Virus record (IMG/VR): IMGVR_UViG_3300046642_000365
Coordinates: 1-45,332 of that record
DNA length: 45,332 nt
Direction: 5' to 3' (one strand)
Source: a virus
The translations under genes were made by a program, and so were the position numbers. The notes under the pieces were generated by a model. The model saw nothing but the letters and a program-made list of their open reading frames with translations. It did not search any database and was not told the origin of the DNA. The stretch's first letter is position 1. The number at the start of each line of letters is the position of its first letter. Shown here piece after piece: positions 1 to 45,332 of the stretch.

Positions 1-124
1 TCGTGAACATCCTGAAGGCGGCGGGCGCCAAGGGACTCACGCGAGCGGAGCTCGTCCAGAAGATGGATGGGGTGGTTGTCACGCGACAGCCGCTCGGGCG
101 CATCCTGTCCTATTACCAGAAGGA
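1..124. repeat. 124-bp direct repeat of the two contig ends (left copy)
   Basis: Bases 1-124 are identical to 45208-45331; the next base differs (c at 125, g at 45332, the last base of the window). The repeat lies inside a reading frame that continues without interruption across the junction. This fits an assembly overlap on a circular or terminally redundant genome better than a physical end in non-coding DNA. A true short terminal repeat, as in T7-like phages, cannot be excluded. Confidence 0.9.
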
Positions 125-1731: not shown

Positions 1732-1766
1732 TGTACGGGAATTATTATGCTTAGTATGATGTCAAT
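1732..1766 (+). promoter_or_regulatory. predicted leaderless promoter P1 (TGTACG-N17-TATGAT-N6-ATG)
   Basis: TGTACG at 1732-1737, a 17-bp spacer, TATGAT at 1755-1760, then six bases to the ATG at 1767. A start six bases after the -10 hexamer puts +1 at the A of the start codon. The same arrangement occurs at 7784, 43917 and (minus strand) 42279. The upstream bases ATTTTCAAG are shared with the copy at 44964. Assignment as a promoter is an inference from the repeated pattern. Confidence 0.65.
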
Positions 1767-1916
1767 ATGCCAGCGAAACTTGAGCATCAATTAGAGGCCG
1801 AAGCCAACAAGAAGCACCTGAAGGGTAAGCATCGCGCCGCATACATCTATGGGACGATGCGTAAAACCGGGTGGAAGCCAAAGCGTGAGCGCGGACATAC
1901 CGCGCTAACGGACTAA
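1767..1916 (+). CDS. small basic conserved phage protein
   Basis: A 49-residue basic protein, MPAKLEHQLEAEANKK followed by HLKGKHRAAYIYGTMRKTGWKP. The combination of a helix rich in Lys and Glu and the AYIYGTxRKxGWKP ending resembles tiny conserved proteins found in many phage genomes. I know of no assigned function; the positive charge would fit nucleic-acid binding. It directly follows a promoter-like element with no room for a leader, so its mRNA is predicted to be leaderless. It is too short for many gene callers. Confidence 0.7.
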   Translation: MPAKLEHQLEAEANKKHLKGKHRAAYIYGTMRKTGWKPKRERGHTALTD

Positions 1917-7783: not shown

Positions 7784-7818
7784 TATACGAGAAAAATTTC
7801 GCATGATACGATAACGAT
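7784..7818 (+). promoter_or_regulatory. predicted leaderless promoter P2 (TATACG-N17-TACGAT-N6-ATG)
   Basis: TATACG at 7784-7789, a 17-bp spacer, TACGAT at 7807-7812, then six bases (aacgat) to the ATG at 7819. It shares GCATGATACGAT-like sequence around the -10 with the copy at 43917 (CATGATACGAT). There is no Shine-Dalgarno sequence, so the transcript would begin at or next to the start codon. Promoter activity is inferred. Confidence 0.65.
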
Positions 7819-8370
7819 ATGATAGTAACAAATCCATTAACTCAGCAGCCGCTGACTGACAGTGACCTGGAGGCACTGTCTGCGCTAGCGAATAAGCTGT
7901 TAGCCGTACAGGCAGAGATGGGCACGTTGGAGGTCCAGCTCAAGAATCGGGCCGAGATGGCCAAGAACCTAGAATTCACCCTCATTCCGGAGGCGATGTC
8001 ACGCATAGGCATGACGAAGTTCGTCCTGAGCAATGGGGTCGTTGTGGAGGTGGCACCATATTACGCGTGCTATCTCAGCGAGGAAGAGCCAGAACTAAAG
8101 ACGCGAGGAATTGCGTGGCTCAGGGCGAATAAGTATGCTTCACTCGTCAAGAATGAGATCAAGGTGAATCTTGACAGTGACAGCAACAAGGAATCATTGA
8201 TGATCCAGAAGTATCTGGACAAGCACGGCATCCAGTATGCCAAGAAGGAGATGGTTCACCCATCCACGCTGAAGAGCCTGATGAGGGAACTGATCGAGTC
8301 TGGCAAGAATTTCCCGATGGATATATTCAGGGCCATCACCGGGAAGAGAGCAAAACTAACAAACAACTAG
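7819..8370 (+). CDS. conserved phage protein of unknown function
   Basis: A 183-residue protein with an N-terminal helical region (about residues 10-60, heptad-like, LSALANKLLAVQAEMGTLEV) and a C-terminal half ending in helices (SLMRELIESGKNFPMDIF). It is the first gene after predicted promoter P2 and is followed by the putative ssDNA-binding protein; that pairing is common in phages with this type of replication module. A role as a DNA-binding or recombination partner is possible, but I see no catalytic motif. Confidence 0.6.
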   Translation: MIVTNPLTQQPLTDSDLEALSALANKLLAVQAEMGTLEVQLKNRAEMAKNLEFTLIPEAMSRIGMTKFVLSNGVVVEVAPYYACYLSEEEPELKTRGIAWLRANKYASLVKNEIKVNLDSDSNKESLMIQKYLDKHGIQYAKKEMVHPSTLKSLMRELIESGKNFPMDIFRAITGKRAKLTNN

Positions 8371-12249: not shown

Positions 12250-12301
12250 GATGTTACGCGTCGCAACGCAATCAATCCTATGATATGCGGGATATAATTA
12301 T
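12250..12301 (+). promoter_or_regulatory. AT-rich spacer with TATAAT before SNF2-like helicase
   Basis: The 52-base spacer has TATAAT at 12293-12298, only three bases before the ATG at 12302, and TATGAT at 12279-12284. A GTTACG sequence at 12253 recalls the -35 element of the other predicted promoters, but its spacing to TATGAT is 20 bp. It is therefore only a weak promoter candidate. Confidence 0.3.
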
Positions 12302-13759
12302 ATGATAAAAGACACATCTAAATTTCCCCCGCATACACACGTGATGCCTCCATATGGTCACCAAGCGAAGATCCTGGGTGAGACCTGGAATAGGAAGCAA
12401 TTCGCGCTCTTCTGGGAAATGGGCGCTGGGAAGTCGAAGCCCATCATAGATACTGCGGCGATGCTCTTCCTCGCTGGGGAAATCGATGGGTTATGGATCG
12501 TGTGCGACAATGGGGCGTATAGGAACTGGACTGACTACGAGATCCCCAGGCATATGCCCCCGCACGTCCCAACCAGGACTGCTTACTGGGCATCCACGAT
12601 GAAGTCCGCTGAGAAGAGGAAGGTGGAGCAACTGCTAGTGGCAGTTGATGATGTCCTCGACATACTCGTCATGCCCGTTGAGGCGTTCAGTGCCACACGC
12701 GCGCCCATATTTGCCGAGGCATTCCTCAGGTCCCACTACCCAATGGGAGTGATCGATGAGTCCTCGAGCATCAAGAACCTCAAGGCCAACAGGACTGGGA
12801 AGATACTGTCACTGAGGAACTTCTGCGAGTACAGGAGGATCATGTCAGGAACTCCCATAACCAACAGTCCAATAGACCTGTTTTCCCAGTTCGAATTCCT
12901 TGAATCTGGCCTATTAGGATTCACGTCATACGTGGCATTCAGGAACCACTACTGTAAGTTGATGCTCATGGATGCTGGACGAGGCAAATTCCTCCAGATC
13001 GTCGGATACAAGAACCTGGAAGAGCTCACACAGAACATCCAACCCCACAGTTCCAGAGTTCTGAAGGTGGATTGCCTAGATCTTCCAGACAAGATCTATG
13101 AGCGATGCTTCGTGGAGCATACGGCGGAGCAACGGCTCGCCTACGAGACCCTGAGATCGACGGCAGTCATGGAGATGGAATCTGGGCAAGTGACCGTGAC
13201 ATCCGCACTGACCATGCTTGGGAAACTTCACCAGATCAACTGTGGTCACGTCAAGGACGATGATGGGATGACCCGAGACATTCCCAATAACAGGGTCTCT
13301 GAGCTATTGCGGCTCATCGAATTAGTCGACGGCAAAGTGATAGTGTGGGCATACTTCGTCAGGGACATTGAGTTGATAAGATTGGCACTGACCGCGGGGA
13401 ATATTAGGCACGTGCATTACTATGGTGCCACATCTCCCGATGACCGAGTGAAGGCGATAAATGACTTTAGGAATGATCCAGGGATCAAGGTGTTTTTGTC
13501 AAATCAGCAGACTGGTGGTAAGGGAATATCTCTCACTGAGGCATCTGACGTGGTATACTACTCGCAGTCGTTTTCATTAACGTCCAGGCTCCAGTCGGAG
13601 GACAGGTGCCATAGGCCTGGACAACACAGGAATGTCACGTACACGGACCTCGTCACGGCTAATACGGTGGACATCAAGATATGTGACGCACTGCGGGACA
13701 AGAAAGACCTGGCATCGAGCGTGCTCGACGTCTACAGGGAATGCCTCATTGGTTCATGA
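12302..13759 (+). CDS. SF2 helicase/translocase, SNF2-like
   Basis: A 485-residue ATPase. Motif I EMGAGKS is at residues 39-45; motif II reads IDESS at 151-155 instead of DEAH/DExH; motif III SGTPITNSPIDLFSQ follows; the C-terminal RecA lobe has SNQQTGGKGISLTEA and QSEDRCHRPGQ, the arginine-finger motif typical of SNF2 and phage DarB-like helicases. It probably remodels protein-DNA complexes or forks. The 3' end overlaps, in the opposite direction, the last 14 bases of the late lipoprotein gene, so the two transcription arms collide here. Confidence 0.9.
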   Translation: MIKDTSKFPPHTHVMPPYGHQAKILGETWNRKQFALFWEMGAGKSKPIIDTAAMLFLAGEIDGLWIVCDNGAYRNWTDYEIPRHMPPHVPTRTAYWASTMKSAEKRKVEQLLVAVDDVLDILVMPVEAFSATRAPIFAEAFLRSHYPMGVIDESSSIKNLKANRTGKILSLRNFCEYRRIMSGTPITNSPIDLFSQFEFLESGLLGFTSYVAFRNHYCKLMLMDAGRGKFLQIVGYKNLEELTQNIQPHSSRVLKVDCLDLPDKIYERCFVEHTAEQRLAYETLRSTAVMEMESGQVTVTSALTMLGKLHQINCGHVKDDDGMTRDIPNNRVSELLRLIELVDGKVIVWAYFVRDIELIRLALTAGNIRHVHYYGATSPDDRVKAINDFRNDPGIKVFLSNQQTGGKGISLTEASDVVYYSQSFSLTSRLQSEDRCHRPGQHRNVTYTDLVTANTVDIKICDALRDKKDLASSVLDVYRECLIGS

Positions 13760-17820: not shown

Positions 17821-18632
17821 GGTGCGGTGCATCCCGATAGTGCTCCATTATGCAAAGTTAGGTTCCCACCAGACCCGGCGTTGGTTCCATCGTAAACGTG
17901 CATATATAGAGTCGGGGCGCTTCCTGTAGGAGTTGAACCATCCGTCCCCAGGTTTACCGGCTTCCCTCCCGATGTGCGAAACTTCTGCACGTTGGTAGAG
18001 TTGGTTAGGTCTAACCATTGGCCTGCCGCAAAATACAACTCACTGATACAACATGATACTGGGAGAGCGCCTCCTGCCAGTGCCATTACGCCCCAATCCG
18101 TAACTCCAGTATAGAGTATATTTACATTTGCCTGAGTTCCAGCATTAGCGTCGCTTGAACCATTCACGTATGTCTTGGACTTATTTATATCAGAGGAATC
18201 CCAAGCCATGATAACATGAGTCCATCCCGATGCAGAGGTCCAAGTGGACACACCCTGCAAACTTACAGCAGCACTGCCATTTACGAAATCAACGTATAAT
18301 TTATCATCGGAAGATTTGTAAATGCGGTTATTGCTGTCCCCATAAAGTATAGGATTAAACTGAGCATCACTAGCAGCACCCCATTTCACCCAAAAAGAGA
18401 TAATCCCCGTTTTGCTGTCCGCGATGCTGGTGAATGCGGCACCACGATTAAAGTATTGATTGGAGCCGTTCATGGTCGCAGCCGTATATGAGAAAGATGA
18501 TCCTGCTACTGGATTCACGTTTCCAACCAACCCTTGATCCCTCAAGGTGAACCCCTGCGCTCGAATCAACTTCGGCACAAAGATCGTCGGGACAAAGAGC
18601 AGCCCCTTCTTGATAAAATCACGCCTTACCAT
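17817..18632 (-). CDS. Tat-signal protein with LamG/ConA-like lectin domain
   Basis: A 271-residue protein. The N-terminus MVRRDFIKKGLLF has the twin-arginine motif RRxFIKK followed by a moderately hydrophobic stretch and IRAQG, a likely Tat signal with cleavage. The body matches a LamG/concanavalin A-like jelly roll: SFSYTAATMNGSNQYFNRG, then FWVKW, GWTHVIMAWD and KTYVNGS. Carbohydrate binding is the usual role. A Tat signal in a phage late gene is very unusual and suggests export as a folded protein. It overlaps the upstream tail-fibre gene by seven bases. Confidence 0.72.
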   Translation of the reverse strand: MVRRDFIKKGLLFVPTIFVPKLIRAQGFTLRDQGLVGNVNPVAGSSFSYTAATMNGSNQYFNRGAAFTSIADSKTGIISFWVKWGAASDAQFNPILYGDSNNRIYKSSDDKLYVDFVNGSAAVSLQGVSTWTSASGWTHVIMAWDSSDINKSKTYVNGSSDANAGTQANVNILYTGVTDWGVMALAGGALPVSCCISELYFAAGQWLDLTNSTNVQKFRTSGGKPVNLGTDGSTPTGSAPTLYMHVYDGTNAGSGGNLTLHNGALSGCTAP

Positions 18633-21600
18633 AAAGGTAACGCCACCGCGTTAGTGAACACCTGGGCATACTGGAACACCGTGATAGAGCTTACGTTCGT
18701 CACATACCATGTTCCTTGTATATGCCAAGCAACTTGAGGAGTCATTACAACCGCTGCCGCTGTGCTATTCGTGATGAATACCACGGCTGTCTGTGCCAAT
18801 GTCTTTGTCGTATCTACACCAATCGGAGCCAAGAAGGTAAATGCCGCGTTTGTCGTAATCATCTGGTATCCCTTACGCATGTCAGGAATTATTCCACCTG
18901 TGTTAGTTGAGTAATTGATATTGCTATTTATGTTGATGTAAGCTACATTCGTCAATCCAAAATTACCCACATTCGTGTCTGCATTCAACGGAAAAGGTGC
19001 TGGTCCTGTTGCCCCAGTAGCTCCAGTCGCCCCGGTCAATGTCACGGTATACCCTTGATTTCCAAAGATAGCATTCGCCCCAGTTCCAACAGATTCATTA
19101 GTGATATAAAATGTCGCACCAGCTTTTAGTACCCCCTCCAGGAGCACAGCTACTGTTGGCTGTAACGCAACTCCATTAGTGACTGAGGCAATCTGCACGA
19201 AGGTGCTCCCGCCCGCTTGGTCTGCGTAAATAGACATGATACCTCCCGCACCTGCGGCTGCCGTAGCTGGTCCTTGTAACGAGACATACGCAAGTGCAAG
19301 GATCGGCGCGGCTCCTACAGTATAGACATTGTTTATGAGCCAATTCGTCTGTGTGATCGTCGGTGCTCCACCCGCACCACCACTACTAGCGGCCCACTTC
19401 GTATTGCCAGCCGTTCCTACGGCAGTCATCACGTAGGTGTCCGTGGGCGTGTTTGTTGGCATCTGCGTGTAGTGAGATGAATCACTAGAGTATCCTACGG
19501 AAGTATTACCTATCGGCACGATGCTCATATTCGACGACGTGAGCGTATTCGTCCCCTGCGTGTTCGTGATCTGAAATCGCCCTCGTTCGTAAACGTCGTC
19601 AATGACTAGTGGAAAGTTCTTAGTAGCGTTAGTGAGCCAATGCCCGTCAGAACCACTAAAACCATTTCCTGACGAGTTAATACCGTTTCCACCATTACCG
19701 ATGAGTAGCGCACCTGAAGTTAGTAAGAATGCATTCGTCGCTGCTTCCCTAAATGCCGTCGCACCAGACGCTCCTGTTGCCATCACTACCGCGCCACTAA
19801 ATGCAGCATTCGTCGGCGGTCGCATGAAATTCACGAAGTCAGATGAGAAGCCGTTCGTGTCGGTAGTCTGTGCATTAGGACCGTCAATGAAGATTTGTCG
19901 TGCTGTCCCTGCGCTGTTGCTGAATGTGATAGTTCCAGGACTTGCACCTGTAACACTCAATCCATTCGCAGTAGGATTAATCAGCACTACACCCTTCAAG
20001 GTGTTACTACTAACTGTGAGTCCAATGTTAGCTTGACCACTAGAAACTGCGCCAGTTACAGTAATATCGTTACCAATCAAGTTCAGATTCGATTCTATCA
20101 CTCCTGATGCCGCTATGCTCACAGAGTTAGTAAGTATTGCCGACACTGCATTACTAGCCGATCCACTCCCTCCACCACCCGTTGCTGTAAGTGTCGTCCC
20201 ATCCGAGCTTAGCCCGCTACCTATCACCAGCGTCTTTAAGTGTGCTCCTAGCCTATCACCTCCGTCTGTCCCAACAATCGCATTCACCCCGCCATTGAAC
20301 ATTATCGGTGCGTTAGTCTTTAATATCGTCCCCGCATTGGTAATCGTCGAAGCCATGTTCGTGCTAAGCACTAGGTTATCCAACGAGAGATTATTAATGA
20401 TCCCGCCCACATCGTTAAACACGATAAAGTCCCTGTTCCCCACTGCTGAGTTCGTGCTCCTAGTCCACATCACGTCGGAAATCATTAGGTTCGTGAAGAT
20501 CACTCCATTTGGACAATACACCAACGCACGATTAGTCAGTGTCGAGGTCACCCCTACATTTGTCTCAAGCACTGAGATGCCTGAAATCTGCATCTGCTCG
20601 ATCACGGCGTTCGTGTGGTTGTTGTTGACCGGTGGACCAATGATAAACGCGCCACCGTAGTCCCTCCAACGACAATTCTTGATTTGAACATTCTTTACGT
20701 GCAATGGCGCATTATCAAACTCCATCAAGGAAATAGTGGGAAAGTTTCCCCACAGATTCCCTCGATTACCCGTCGCGTTGATGTTCTCTAAAAGAACACC
20801 GTCAATGATCCCGCCCTGCCCGCCAGTGGAGATGGACCAAAAAGTCCACAGCCGTATAACATGGTTCGCCGTGCTGCCAGAAACATTGCGAATGGTCACA
20901 TCTGTGATGTTATTCTTTTGCGCTAGGAGTGATATGCCCTCCGTAGTGTTATCGTCAAAGTAAACACCATCAATGAGCACATGACTAATGTCGCCATGCT
21001 GTAATGCCCAAGTAGTCACTTCACCTGCAAGATAGGCATCCGCATCCACAGCAATGAAATCAGTCGAATCCGAACCACGAATATTGTGCAAATAAGCATT
21101 GTTCCCCCCGAACAGGTCAATGCCGTCGGCGCCAATCACTATCGGTTGAAAGGTCAGATTCTCGACCACAATATCCTGCCAGTCACTTATGACGGCGTGA
21201 AAGAAGGCTGGATCACGGATAGTCACGTCCTGTATCCATATATTACTCACGCCGTAAAAACCAATCCCGTTGTTATACGCGTCCCCATTTTGAGGACCAG
21301 CGACAGCGGCTTGCTGTGTGCCATTGCCAAAGTAGAATCCCCCAATCAGCCGAATGTTGTAATCTAGGTAAGTGTGATTCGTGGACGGGTGTGCATTGTG
21401 CACAATGATCTGGTTAGAGTTGTCCTTCAAGTAGAGTCCACCCCTGCCTGAGCATCTGATCGTCGTATTCGCATAAACAAATAGTCCCGTCACCACGCAC
21501 GGAACATCAATGACAAGCTCAAATCCGTGATGGTTAGTGGCACTATCCAAGATGCTCTGCAACAACTTCGTGTCATCAGTTCCGCCGGTCGCTTGATCTA

Positions 21601-22009
21601 GACCCTGTCCATCATTCAAGATTCTAGCATCACCATGCACACCCATCTGCGAGGCAATCGCCATGTTGGTCCCAATGGTATTGGTCAAGTAGCGCGCATC
21701 CCCATTATAGTTGCTCGATGTTATCGTGCTCACCACCAAGGTCCCAACATAATTGCTCCCAAGAAATACCACGTTGCTGAACGTGTTGCCACTAACGATA
21801 TTTGTCGCGAAATAGCTTCGATCAGCAATGATGATGTAGTTCTGGCCATTGACGTTCGTTGAAATGATGATCCCAGCGCCTGGACTGAGGAATGCCCCGC
21901 CATTGGTCCCGCCACCTCCACCACCTCCCCCGGGCGGGAGCACGATGATCTGCTGGGCAAACCCAGAGCACGCCAGCAACAGCAGGAATAGTCGAATGAT
22001 CGTCCTCAT
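18626..22009 (-). CDS. large fibre/tailspike-like protein, pectate-lyase superfamily beta-helix
   Basis: A 1127-residue protein. Residues 1-19 (MRTIIRLFLLLLACSGFAQ) look like a Sec signal, followed by a Gly-rich linker (PPGGGGGGGG). From about residue 130 the DGQGLDQATGGTDDTKLLQ motif begins a pectate-lyase/GH28-type beta-helix with many rungs to about residue 560. A long Ser/Thr/Asn-rich beta region follows, and a collagen-like GATGATGATGP run is near residue 993. The C-terminal part is beta-rich. It probably binds or degrades a surface polysaccharide. The leader peptide raises the question of whether it is a virion fibre or an exported surface protein. Confidence 0.75.
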   Translation of the reverse strand: MRTIIRLFLLLLACSGFAQQIIVLPPGGGGGGGGTNGGAFLSPGAGIIISTNVNGQNYIIIADRSYFATNIVSGNTFSNVVFLGSNYVGTLVVSTITSSNYNGDARYLTNTIGTNMAIASQMGVHGDARILNDGQGLDQATGGTDDTKLLQSILDSATNHHGFELVIDVPCVVTGLFVYANTTIRCSGRGGLYLKDNSNQIIVHNAHPSTNHTYLDYNIRLIGGFYFGNGTQQAAVAGPQNGDAYNNGIGFYGVSNIWIQDVTIRDPAFFHAVISDWQDIVVENLTFQPIVIGADGIDLFGGNNAYLHNIRGSDSTDFIAVDADAYLAGEVTTWALQHGDISHVLIDGVYFDDNTTEGISLLAQKNNITDVTIRNVSGSTANHVIRLWTFWSISTGGQGGIIDGVLLENINATGNRGNLWGNFPTISLMEFDNAPLHVKNVQIKNCRWRDYGGAFIIGPPVNNNHTNAVIEQMQISGISVLETNVGVTSTLTNRALVYCPNGVIFTNLMISDVMWTRSTNSAVGNRDFIVFNDVGGIINNLSLDNLVLSTNMASTITNAGTILKTNAPIMFNGGVNAIVGTDGGDRLGAHLKTLVIGSGLSSDGTTLTATGGGGSGSASNAVSAILTNSVSIAASGVIESNLNLIGNDITVTGAVSSGQANIGLTVSSNTLKGVVLINPTANGLSVTGASPGTITFSNSAGTARQIFIDGPNAQTTDTNGFSSDFVNFMRPPTNAAFSGAVVMATGASGATAFREAATNAFLLTSGALLIGNGGNGINSSGNGFSGSDGHWLTNATKNFPLVIDDVYERGRFQITNTQGTNTLTSSNMSIVPIGNTSVGYSSDSSHYTQMPTNTPTDTYVMTAVGTAGNTKWAASSGGAGGAPTITQTNWLINNVYTVGAAPILALAYVSLQGPATAAAGAGGIMSIYADQAGGSTFVQIASVTNGVALQPTVAVLLEGVLKAGATFYITNESVGTGANAIFGNQGYTVTLTGATGATGATGPAPFPLNADTNVGNFGLTNVAYININSNINYSTNTGGIIPDMRKGYQMITTNAAFTFLAPIGVDTTKTLAQTAVVFITNSTAAAVVMTPQVAWHIQGTWYVTNVSSITVFQYAQVFTNAVALPLW

Positions 22010-35902: not shown

Positions 35903-36799
35903 TTATACGGTTTCGTCGCACTTGACCTCGATCACCTTCTCCTCCCACATGCGAGTCGCGCCGAAGGAAGCACACACGTACACCTGTATGCTATTCCGCT
36001 TGTCTCGCCGTGGGCCGACATCGACCGCGATCTCTTGCGCGGACGCGAGCAGCAGCCCCTGACGCTCAAAGAAGAGGGCTCGACGATAGCTATTGGTGTC
36101 AAGCAGGAGTCGATTACTCCTCACCCACTTGAAGCCCATGAACGTGTCGATCTCTCCAGCAACCAGCGCCTTGACGGTGTTGTAGTTGCTGTTGGTAACT
36201 TCGGTCGTTCGGAGCAGTGCCTGAATCTGCGACGGATCGATCACGGCCACCAGGTCGTGCTCTCCCTCGTTCGCAGCCTCAGCCTTATCCAGAAGATACC
36301 TGACCTTGCGAAGCTTGCCAATGGTCAGGTTCGAGTTAGCAGCCACGCCAGACTCCACGTAATTCACGGCGACCTGCTGAGTGGATGGGAAGGTGATGTT
36401 CACCTCACCCGTCTTACCAGCATAGGACGTCGCGTACGCGGCCTGGATCATGACGTCGTCCATCTTGCGCCCGAGGGCGTAGATGGCGTTCATCGTGTAA
36501 CTCGAGGTAGGATCCGCGAGCATGCGCAAGCGGTCCTTGTTGTCGATCAGGTCCGCCCAGTCAAAGTCCCTGAGCGCCACCCTACGCCTATCGTGATCCG
36601 TCCCGACCAGGGGCGTGTCACTGTGCCGATTGACGACCTCCACGGCATCCGTGGGGCCGATGCGATCATAGAACTCAAATTCAGCGTGCTGGGACTCCGT
36701 CCTGACGTGTGGCCGGATGCGGGACCCCATCTGCTGGAACTTGATCTCAATGTTGCTCCGGTACGCATTAACCAGGGCAATGTCGATTGAGAAAGCCAT
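35903..36799 (-). CDS. major capsid protein
   Basis: A 298-residue protein recognised as a phage capsid of the PF19821/phage_capsid_2 type: DRRRVALRDFDWADLIDNKD followed by RLRMLADPTSSYTMNAIY and GRKMDDVMIQAA. It probably adopts the HK97 fold like all tailed-phage capsids. It lies between scaffold and tail genes, as gp10 does in T7. A 188-bp hairpin-rich spacer precedes it, which could adjust its mRNA level or stability. Confidence 0.9.
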   Translation of the reverse strand: MAFSIDIALVNAYRSNIEIKFQQMGSRIRPHVRTESQHAEFEFYDRIGPTDAVEVVNRHSDTPLVGTDHDRRRVALRDFDWADLIDNKDRLRMLADPTSSYTMNAIYALGRKMDDVMIQAAYATSYAGKTGEVNITFPSTQQVAVNYVESGVAANSNLTIGKLRKVRYLLDKAEAANEGEHDLVAVIDPSQIQALLRTTEVTNSNYNTVKALVAGEIDTFMGFKWVRSNRLLLDTNSYRRALFFERQGLLLASAQEIAVDVGPRRDKRNSIQVYVCASFGATRMWEEKVIEVKCDETV

Positions 36800-36829
36800 A
36801 TAATCAGATCCGTCTTAACTCTGCCGGTG

Positions 36830-36945
36830 TGAGTTCCCCGCAAGAGCGGACTCTGACCTCTGTGGGACTCGCCCCACTATCGCCGAGATCGGGACTCGGA
36901 CCCTGCCAGGCCTGTGAGGTTATCTGGCGCTCTGACCAGACAATA
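36830..36945 (-). ncRNA. hairpin-rich, tRNA-like spacer before the capsid gene
   Basis: On the minus strand four stems can be drawn: 36905-36928 (GCCAG/CTGGC), 36883-36899 (CCGAG/CTCGG), 36862-36877 (GTGGG/CCCAC) and 36831-36853 (GAGT-CCGC with an AAGA loop on plus). GGGTCCGAGTCCC (36891-36903 region) resembles a T-arm, and GGTCAGAGCGCCAG upstream a D-arm, with a CTCACAG segment like a Val(CAC) anticodon loop; but no acceptor stem pairs and the anticodon stem fails. So it may be a decayed tRNA or a processing/stability element, not a working tRNA. Confidence 0.35.
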
Positions 36946-36987
36946 ATGCCACATGGATTATGAGTAAACATTGATGTTCCAGGACAA

Positions 36988-41710: not shown

Positions 41711-42243
41711 TCGCCCTCCCCGATCTTCTTGATCTCAACGTCTATCGGCGCGCCCAGGGACTTGGAGGCGTCCCTCTCAATGATCACGTCCTCCCCGAAC
41801 TTCCTCACTATGACCGTGAGTGAGTGATCCACCTCGCCCCGGACCTCCATGCTGCGCAACTTCGGCATGCGGTACCCCAGCAGCTCCGACCACACCCTGA
41901 TCCTCTGCTCATCACTGAGGCGGTGCTGTCCGTCCTCCCCCCGCTCCATGGCCATCATGATCAGCTCCTCCGCGGGCTCCACGCCGTGCCTAGCGAACAA
42001 GTCGTCCAGCTTCTTGGACAGGTCCTGCCTCGGCGTCGGGGAGTGCTTGTCCTCCCGCCGGGTCGACATGACCGTGGGAGACCTACCACCAGCTGCACGC
42101 CCCACGGATCGGCCCTCCTCCAGCACCCTGTCAGTTACAGGGTCATAACGATAACCCTCGGGCAGTGGCCAGGGGTGTCCTAGCTCCTCAACCCTCCACT
42201 TCTGCTGGATCTCCTCGGCGCTCAGTGTCTTCTTTCGTGGCAC
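41707..42243 (-). CDS. terS: putative terminase small subunit
   Basis: A 178-residue charged protein located directly upstream of terL. The GTG start gives MPRKKTLSAEEIQQKW, and a helical region (DLSKKLDDLFARHGVEP) may form a DNA-binding or oligomerisation element. No classic HTH is evident, so the assignment is by position and size. It is the first gene of the minus-strand late operon and has a predicted leaderless promoter ending six bases before its start. Confidence 0.72.
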   Translation of the reverse strand: MPRKKTLSAEEIQQKWRVEELGHPWPLPEGYRYDPVTDRVLEEGRSVGRAAGGRSPTVMSTRREDKHSPTPRQDLSKKLDDLFARHGVEPAEELIMMAMERGEDGQHRLSDEQRIRVWSELLGYRMPKLRSMEVRGEVDHSLTVIVRKFGEDVIIERDASKSLGAPIDVEIKKIGEGE

Positions 42244-42279
42244 GACGAGACTATAGACGCGCGCGTGGGCGCACGTACA
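42244..42279 (-). promoter_or_regulatory. predicted late promoter (TGTACG-N18-TATAGT-N6-GTG)
   Basis: On the minus strand TGTACG (42279-42274), an 18-bp spacer, TATAGT (42255-42250) and six bases lead to the GTG start at 42243. This is the same arrangement as the plus-strand copies at 1732, 7784 and 43917, so early and late arms may use one promoter class. The spacer contains alternating GC (GCGCGCG), which may form a stem. It is the only promoter candidate seen for the 28-kb late operon. Confidence 0.62.
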
Positions 42280-42563: not shown

Positions 42564-42631
42564 CCCAATGTGAATGTTTGGTATTAAGAAAGAATACCCT
42601 AAAAGCTCAAGCTTTTGTTACATTTAATTGT

Positions 42632-42700
42632 CCCGTAATACACCTTAAGTCATTCTCTATCAATAGTTTATGAATGAGATGTGGTCATGTTATTATCAAA
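42632..42700 (+). repeat. 65-bp repeat R1
   Basis: First forward copy. Conserved flanks are CCGTAATACACCTTAA at the left and GAGATGTGGTCATGTTATTA at the right; the centre (TCTCTATCAATAG) is the most diverged of the four copies. R1 and R2 are about 87 bp apart in the same orientation. Confidence 0.9.
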
Positions 42701-42719
42701 TTTTTTTCGGTTCTTCCCA

Positions 42720-42787
42720 CCGTAATACACCTTAAATACTTGACTATCAATGGTTTAGGAGTGAGATGTGGTCATGTTATTATCAAA
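42720..42787 (+). repeat. 65-bp repeat R2
   Basis: Second forward copy, sharing with R1 both flanks and the ending GTTATTATCAAA. The centre can fold weakly: CAC/GTG, TAAA/TTTA and TTG/CAA around ACTAT (42728-42763). Bases differ from R3 and R4 but pairing is partly kept, which suggests that the dyad shape is selected. Confidence 0.9.
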
Positions 42788-42880
42788 AGTGAGTTTTACA
42801 AGTTTTGATAACTTAGTCTTACTAATACTCATTATTAGATAAGTTAATGGATAACAATTGAATTTTTCAATTCTGATAAT

Positions 42881-42941
42881 ACATAGACCACATCTCACCT
42901 CTAAGTCCTTGAATACCAAGGGTTTAAGGTGTATTACGAGG
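42881..42941 (-). repeat. 65-bp repeat R3 (inverted)
   Basis: Inverted copy relative to R1 and R2. Its central dyad is clear: CACCT-c-TAA-gt-CCTTG-aatac-CAAGG-gt-TTA-AGGTG (42896-42931), a 13-pair symmetrical hairpin or protein-binding palindrome. Confidence 0.9.
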
Positions 42942-42957
42942 AAAATTCATTATTTTG

Positions 42958-43018
42958 ATACATGACCACATCTCACCTCTAAGTCCTTGAATACCAAGGG
43001 CTTAAGGTGTATTACGGG
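42958..43018 (-). repeat. 65-bp repeat R4 (inverted)
   Basis: Second inverted copy, nearly identical to R3 (one change, GGGT to GGGC, in the dyad at 42974-43009) and spaced 78 bp from it. It ends in GGTGTATTACGGG, the complement of the start of R1. Confidence 0.9.
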
Positions 43019-43308
43019 AAATATCAATCAAAAACCCCTGTTTGTATAAAATTATACAGCATGATCATGAAGATACAGCACTCTCTAAGAACAACTTAAG
43101 TGTGTGATCTGCTCATAAGCCCTTGATACTTAACAGTTTAACTGCTGTATCTTTTCATACACGTGAGTAAAGTTAAGTAGTTGATAGAGAACAACTTAGA
43201 CTTGGCACAGTTTCTTCTTACCATAATTCAGTTCTTTGAGATTATTATGGAATCTGTTCTGTGTGTGGAATGATCTTCCCAGTAAGAAGATTGTTCCAAC
43301 CACAGAAT

Positions 43309-43916: not shown

Positions 43917-43952
43917 TTTACGAGCAATAGTAACTCATGATACGATACTAAT
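43917..43952 (+). promoter_or_regulatory. predicted leaderless promoter P3 (TTTACG-N18-TACGAT-N6-ATG)
   Basis: TTTACG at 43917-43922, an 18-bp spacer, TACGAT at 43941-43946, then six bases (actaat) to the ATG at 43953. No ribosome site is present. TTTACGAG is shared with the element at 44964, and CATGATACGAT with that at 7784. Confidence 0.65.
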
Positions 43953-44192
43953 ATGAAAGCTACAACTAGGCGAGAATATACCATAGCAGAGATGCGAAAA
44001 ATCTTATTCGTGTGGGAGTTCAATACCGCCATGGATGACCCACGATACTTCATATGGGACACATTATGGAATGGGAATCAATTCTCAGGATATGCTAATG
44101 CTCCCAATGAGGAAATCCTGAAGGAGTGGAATGCATCCACTGATGGGTTCTCTGATGAGGACTGGAACGCGATGGCAGACGACCTCGACTAG
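43953..44192 (+). CDS. small acidic hypothetical protein (79 residues)
   Basis: Basic N-terminus (MKATTRREYTIAEMRK), aromatic middle (FVWEFNTAMDDPRYFIWD) and a strongly acidic end (DGFSDEDWNAMADDLD). Acidic small early phage proteins often bind host enzymes or mimic DNA, but no family is recognised. Predicted to be translated from a leaderless mRNA. It is followed 12 bases later by a perfect 10-bp hairpin. Confidence 0.65.
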   Translation: MKATTRREYTIAEMRKILFVWEFNTAMDDPRYFIWDTLWNGNQFSGYANAPNEEILKEWNASTDGFSDEDWNAMADDLD

Positions 44193-44963: not shown

Positions 44964-44998
44964 TTTACGAGAGTGTGTTCTCATGTTAGAGTAGTGAT
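44964..44998 (+). promoter_or_regulatory. predicted promoter P4 (TTTACG-N17-TAGAGT)
   Basis: TTTACG at 44964-44969, a 17-bp spacer and TAGAGT at 44987-44992. By analogy with the leaderless copies transcription would start at 44999. Here the gene begins 52 bases later, so the mRNA has a leader, unlike P1-P3. The upstream ATTTTCAAG is shared with P1. Confidence 0.55.
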
Positions 44999-45050: not shown

Positions 45051-45332
45051 ATGGCGAAACAAACTAAGACAGAAACCACCCAGGGCGTACCAACGACCAC
45101 TGGAAAGACACTCGCAGAAACAGCAGCTGAACGGGCCAAGGTGTCCGCCAAGGACAGGTTCACCTTCAAGAAAGACCTGGAGAAGGGCGCACCGCAGGCG
45201 AAGAACATCGTGAACATCCTGAAGGCGGCGGGCGCCAAGGGACTCACGCGAGCGGAGCTCGTCCAGAAGATGGATGGGGTGGTTGTCACGCGACAGCCGC
45301 TCGGGCGCATCCTGTCCTATTACCAGAAGGAG
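45051..45332 (+). CDS. 5' part of small winged-helix-like protein (continues at position 1)
   Basis: Starts at ATG 45051 with a GAGGAAAAC ribosome site identical in core to that of the gene at 8392. The N-terminal 40 residues are Thr/Lys-rich and probably disordered (MAKQTKTETTQGVPTTTG); a helical domain then begins (KNIVNILKAAGAKGLTRAEL). Joined with 1-170 the protein has 108 residues. The good ribosome site and own promoter suggest abundant expression, fitting a nucleoid- or DNA-binding protein; this is inferred. Confidence 0.8.
   Translation, partial: MAKQTKTETTQGVPTTTGKTLAETAAERAKVSAKDRFTFKKDLEKGAPQAKNIVNILKAAGAKGLTRAELVQKMDGVVVTRQPLGRILSYYQKE
45208..45331. repeat. 124-bp direct repeat of the two contig ends (right copy)
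   Basis: Right-hand copy of the sequence at 1-124. Joining position 45207 to position 1 restores a complete 108-residue reading frame, which supports a circular map with a unit length of about 45,207 bp. The single mismatch at the final base is probably an edge error. Confidence 0.9.

Follow-up and report, generated by a model that had tools for sequence, protein, structure and literature searches.

Putative sigma70-type promoters placed six bases before start codons predict leaderless mRNAs in uncultured podovirus-like phages

The sequence analysed here is the IMG/VR virus contig IMGVR_UViG_3300046642_000365, 45,332 nt of environmental DNA, which we refer to in its whole length as the window. 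The two ends of the contig overlap by ca. 124 nt (positions 1-124 repeat 45208-45331). The contig is therefore circular or terminally redundant and probably represents almost all of a circularly permuted phage of ca. 45.2 kb, the gene beginning at 45051 running on across the contig end into position 1. Rightward genes code for DNA polymerase I, a primase, two helicases, a ligase and a thymidylate synthase, and leftward genes make up a podovirus-type structural block (terminase region, portal, capsid and tail tubular proteins). No lysogeny gene was seen in the window. The late block also contains an ORF of 1127 aa (18626-22009, minus strand) with no PHROGs or Pfam match. The same gene content was found in seven other IMG/VR contigs (G1 to G7, of which G1, G2 and G3 correspond to the contig labels L067, L065 and L061) and in MW202510 (Manatee Spring, "MS"), with identities to the window of 48-59% for the helicase and 67-76% for the capsid protein. 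These eight relatives and the window form the set of nine records used below. By portal protein, the nearest phages were MW202510 and Pelagibacter phages (35-47%), and a host search with the same protein over one genome per species gave distant matches only, in Rickettsiaceae genomes.

Four sites in the window share one promoter layout. On the plus strand, the site at 1732-1769 consists of TGTACG (1732-1737), 17 nt, TATGAT (1755-1760), GTCAAT and the ATG at 1767 of a 49-aa ORF (1767-1916); the one at 7784-7821 of TATACG, 17 nt, TGa-TACGAT, AACGAT and the ATG at 7819 of a DUF7307 (Pam3 gp33-like) gene (7819-8370); and the one at 43917-43955 of TTTACG, 18 nt, TGa-TACGAT, ACTAAT and the ATG at 43953 of a 79-aa ORF (43953-44192). 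The fourth, on the minus strand (42241-42279), has TGTACG (42279-42274), 18 nt, TATAGT, CTCGTC and a GTG at 42243, the only one of the four starts that is not ATG. It heads the leftward late operon, whose first gene sits just before the large terminase; from this GTG the product has 178 aa, against 159-192 aa in the relatives, and the next in-frame start would leave only 132 aa. Two more copies of the same promoter class lie further from their genes. At 44964-44992 (plus strand; TTTACG, 17 nt, TAGAGT) there are 58 nt from the -10 to the gene start at 45051, with a predicted 5' UTR of ca. 52 nt and GAGAGG before the ATG. At 36940-36968 (minus strand; TTTACT, 17 nt, TATTGT; score 12.8 with the weight matrix described below) the distance from the -10 to the ATG of the major capsid gene (35903-36799) is 140 nt, the leader being 36800-36939 on the minus strand. 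The initial annotation, which had listed the four sites with their hexamers and six-base gap, a fifth copy at 44964 with a leader and the absence of a Shine-Dalgarno sequence before the four starts, proved accurate on inspection of the sequence.

The pattern T.TACG-N17,18-TAnnnT-N6-RTG has four matches in the window; in 300 first-order Markov shuffles there were 0.03 on average and never more than one. To the question, raised by the initial annotation, of whether it is as frequent in shuffled sequence and inside genes the answer is therefore no: all four matches are intergenic, in front of ORFs, and none falls inside a gene. This pattern was written after the sites had been seen, a point in favour of a chance or compositional artefact. 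Against it, a fixed pattern, T(T/A/G)TAC(A/G/T)-16..18-TAnnnT-d-RTG followed by 20 or more open codons, found 17 sites at distance six in the nine records where 0.68 were expected (at most 3 in any of 60 shuffled sets), and a weight matrix trained on 17 sites from the relatives only, with none from the window, ranked the window sites independently. It gave six window hits scoring at least 12 (1.0 expected), among them 7784, 43917 and 44964; the sites at 1732 and 42279 score below this threshold because of the G at position 2 of their -35. With the shuffle counts and this independent ranking we have rejected a chance origin, whose probability we consider practically nil. Mid-scoring matrix hits inside a conserved tail-region gene, recurrent in most relatives, were set aside as probable coding conservation.

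The position of the -10 is what stands out in these comparisons. Generic -35/-10 scoring over distances of 0 to 30 in the nine phages gave 12 sites at distance six and 0-4 at any other, and in-frame start codons inside genes, a control with ca. 10 times as many codons, gave five at distance six. The 17 fixed-pattern sites at this distance are all intergenic, with the -10 six bases before an ATG (14 of 17) or GTG. None has a Shine-Dalgarno match of four or more, which 114 of 369 called genes have near a start. When we anchored on TAnnnT, six bases and RTG without any assumption about the -35, a gTTTAC block emerged: T.TAC at 16-18 bp was present in 12 of 19 anchored distance-six sites, in four at distance 8 and in 0-2 at distances 3-5, 7 and 9-12. 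The placement is not found everywhere: G5 lacks a distance-six site, and the 13-kb G6 lacks sites altogether. Among wider relatives sharing the capsid gene, the leaderless pattern occurred in two of 19 records, which is the control level, so that it belongs to the close clade, and the capsid promoter reaches further. In search of a host with a like promoter habit, we also counted TTTACR-N17-TAnnnT-N6-ATG across the sampled bacterial phylum. Only 68 of the 200 genomes had it, in most cases in one or two copies, its frequency was close to that of the reversed control, and no genome clearly stood out.

Gene by gene, the predicted leader length follows the gene. Before the DUF7307 gene, T.TAC(G/A/T)-16/17-TAnnnT-6-ATG is found in the window, G1, G2 and G3 with diverged spacers, and no such promoter was seen there in the remaining relatives. 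In the family of the gene at 45051, the distance from -10 to start is 58 nt in the window, 57 in G3 and G5 and 46 in MW202510, and the capsid gene has a promoter of this class ca. 140 nt upstream in the window, the relatives and a wider contig set, mostly at 135-148 nt. For the gene ahead of the terminase it is 6 nt in the window, 8 before an ATG in G4, G5 and MW202510 and 9 in G1. These last values could mean that the transcript 5' ends lie slightly off the first base (A or G) of the start codon. Since real promoters differ by one or two bases in where transcription begins after the -10, a leader of 1-2 nt is possible, as distances of 7 and 8 also occur; intergenic sites were found at distances 5, 7, 8 and 9 (1, 3, 5 and 2, respectively). 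On the other side, the peak at six is sharp, with no other distance from 0 to 20 having more than six fixed-pattern sites (0-6 each), and the six-base gap fits the usual start of sigma70-type promoters, ca. 7 bases after the -10, which puts +1 on the start codon. A start off the codon thus appears rather unlikely to us, with a real if modest chance.

Other arrangements accompany these promoters in the relatives. In the capsid promoters of several of them (L067, L065, L061, L062 and L024, the latter on the minus strand near 36355) the -10 forms part of an inverted repeat such as TCGAGGTCACTCTGGATTAGAGTGACCTCGA, possibly an operator or a hairpin. A second class of these promoters, at 12439 and 19920 in G4, 17617 and 23690 in G5, 21311 in G7 and 12956 in MW202510, has a downstream sequence resembling TATATT-AGTTCA-GAATTA and a short leader, and AGAATTA-like sequences recur before start codons.

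The motif in most relatives is TTTAC(A/G/T), 16-18 bp and TAnnnT, often with TGn. As is typical of sigma70-type promoters, the -10 is TAnnnT and the spacer 17 ± 1 bp. The most common -35 is TTTACA, which matches TTGACA in five of six positions; the TNTACG of the window, with three to four of six, is a weaker version of TTTACA. The lac promoter of E. coli needs CRP for full activity and its mRNA has a leader. Its -35 is the same TTTACA, with an 18-bp spacer, and is read by sigma70 (PMC2613000). The sigma factor of the phage's host, and its tolerance of leaderless mRNAs, may differ from those of E. coli. In the initial annotation the -35 was considered unlike TTGACA and suggestive of a special sigma factor or phage co-factor. 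The first part holds to the extent that all 17 training sites, which come from relatives, have T at position 3 and none has the consensus G, and it is weakened in that TTTACA is a natural sigma70 -35. The second we do not favour, given the normal spacing, the sigma70-like -10, the lac-type TTTACA and the lack of such a gene among the proteins scanned.

Two versions of a phage-specific reader were considered. One would be a phage-encoded or phage-modified factor (an alternative sigma, or a co-factor remodelling sigma region 4) that reads TTTAC where the housekeeping holoenzyme does not. The constant T at position 3 and the complete absence of TTGAC from the anchored sites, across genomes of 42-54% GC, would speak for it, as would the presence of the same element before early-arm, late-operon and capsid genes. 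But every gene block, even those necessarily read first, seems to rely on this single motif, and its two hexamers are 17 bp apart as in ordinary promoters, whereas a T4 MotA-type arrangement departs from this. Moreover, neither a sigma factor nor a sigma-binding activator or RNA polymerase was matched among the scanned window proteins (Pfam, PHROGs) or among 10 proteins of MW202510, in a scan that was not exhaustive, many small phage proteins having no assigned function. We therefore regard a dedicated factor of this kind as improbable. The other version is a T7-type single-subunit phage RNA polymerase reading the sites as contiguous phage promoters, in line with a tailed phage with podovirus-type structural genes and with the CATGATACGATA...ATATG that the sites at 43917 and 7784 have in common. 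We have rejected it as very improbable, since there is no polymerase match among the large ORFs and what is conserved is a pair of hexamers on either side of a free spacer instead of one block of ca. 20 nt.

The host holoenzyme would thus suffice as the simplest reader, the -10, the spacer and the TGn being ordinary and TTTACA being used by E. coli sigma70 at lac. The constant T at position 3 may reflect the sigma factor of the host. In our opinion, the sites are quite probably recognised as promoters by the host RNA polymerase and its sigma70-type factor, with transcription beginning at the start codon itself. This holoenzyme would bind TTTAC(A/G/T), a spacer of ca. 17 bp and TAnnnT, often with an upstream TG; where the start codon follows the -10 after six bases, transcription would begin on the first base of that codon and yield a leaderless mRNA, the ribosome then binding the 5'-terminal AUG directly (GUG for the late operon) and translating it. 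The same promoter class would also drive genes with leaders, of ca. 52 nt in the family of the gene at 45051 and ca. 135 nt for the capsid. That the constant distance from -10 to ATG implies leaderless mRNAs, as had been proposed initially, now has comparative evidence behind it, the start positions themselves still being predicted. The sharp six-base peak over nine records, the conservation before the DUF7307 gene in four phages and the missing Shine-Dalgarno sequences strongly support leaderless transcription as a prediction from sequence. The GTG of the late operon counts against it, since this start codon works poorly in leaderless mRNAs of E. coli and Caulobacter (PMC9031893). A more ambitious idea, that this clade or its host lineage combines a polymerase specificity dedicated to TTTAC with a fixed choice, for each gene, of no leader, one of ca. 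50 nt or a long structured one that sets translation, strikes us as unlikely.

The capsid-gene leader, of ca. 140 nt, contains in many related phages a conserved RNA with two bulged hairpins (mirrored GGRYAAC-bulge hairpins), a small hairpin and what is apparently an H-type pseudoknot. It was located, among others, at L024:36241-36335 (minus strand), L061:2777-2874, L067:2872-2966 and L079:1502-1590. Over 11 leaders, 40 cells had both sides of a pair changed, against 16 in shuffles and 2-13 when the partners were slid by 1-3 columns, a control that flatters the covariation because the structure was partly chosen on the same 11 sequences. A covariance model built from them gave matches in more contigs, directly before the capsid start (L077, L063, L076, L124, L069, L073, L115, L066 and L070; E-values from 4e-8 to 0.03). 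The window's own leader did not match the model; parts of it are similar by eye. The case for the pseudoknot comes from its shared position and covariation and not from a test on whole leaders, which we discarded as weak per sequence (25-39% of shuffles have a pseudoknot somewhere). The RNA has no Rfam match, and no earlier description was found in the published literature.

Two other non-coding elements were observed. The AT-rich non-coding region at 42622-43028 contains four related elements of ca. 60-70 nt, two in each orientation (CCGTAATACACCTTAAG...GAGATGTGGTCATG), which makes it a candidate origin of replication or control region. In G1, G3-G5, G7 and MW202510 a conserved AT-rich element (like GGGTATATTAACCAATATAATCACATGGCAAAATATCCCCG) directly precedes the helicase gene, and the corresponding sequence of the window (12250-12302) differs from it.

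Leaderless phage mRNAs are already known; the present case adds comparative support of unusual clarity and a -35 specific to the lineage, and a search of the published literature gave no earlier description of this promoter set. The cluster O mycobacteriophages (the Corndog group) have SigA-like promoters, PL1, PR2 and PL2, that are leaderless by prediction as in the window phage (PMC4351075), but these are long-tailed phages of an actinobacterial host, with ca. three such promoters and no test over diverged relatives. The prophage repressor promoters of lambda (cI) and PY54 (cI and cro, with leaderless mRNAs mapped by RACE) also give leaderless phage mRNAs (PMC4488713). Those are lysogeny switch genes, whereas the window phage would use leaderless starts for early-arm small ORFs, for the first gene of the late operon and for the DUF7307 gene. 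Among cellular genes, leaderless ones are described as common in mycobacteria (PMC4633059) and Caulobacter (PMC4117421) and as occurring in Sinorhizobium (PMC3616915), with the promoter directly before the start codon and no Shine-Dalgarno sequence, as here; the 5' ends there were mapped, and the sections of these reports drawn on here do not mention a TTTAC -35.

For this group of uncultured podovirus-like phages, the six-base placement provides a cheap rule, open to checking, by which promoters, transcription starts and start codons can be predicted. It also corrects gene annotation, in which a short ORF like 1767-1916 is easily missed. Comparing diverged environmental phages can place promoters at single-base precision without RNA data, and the constant T of the -35, together with the predicted leaderless starts, offers clues to the phage's host.
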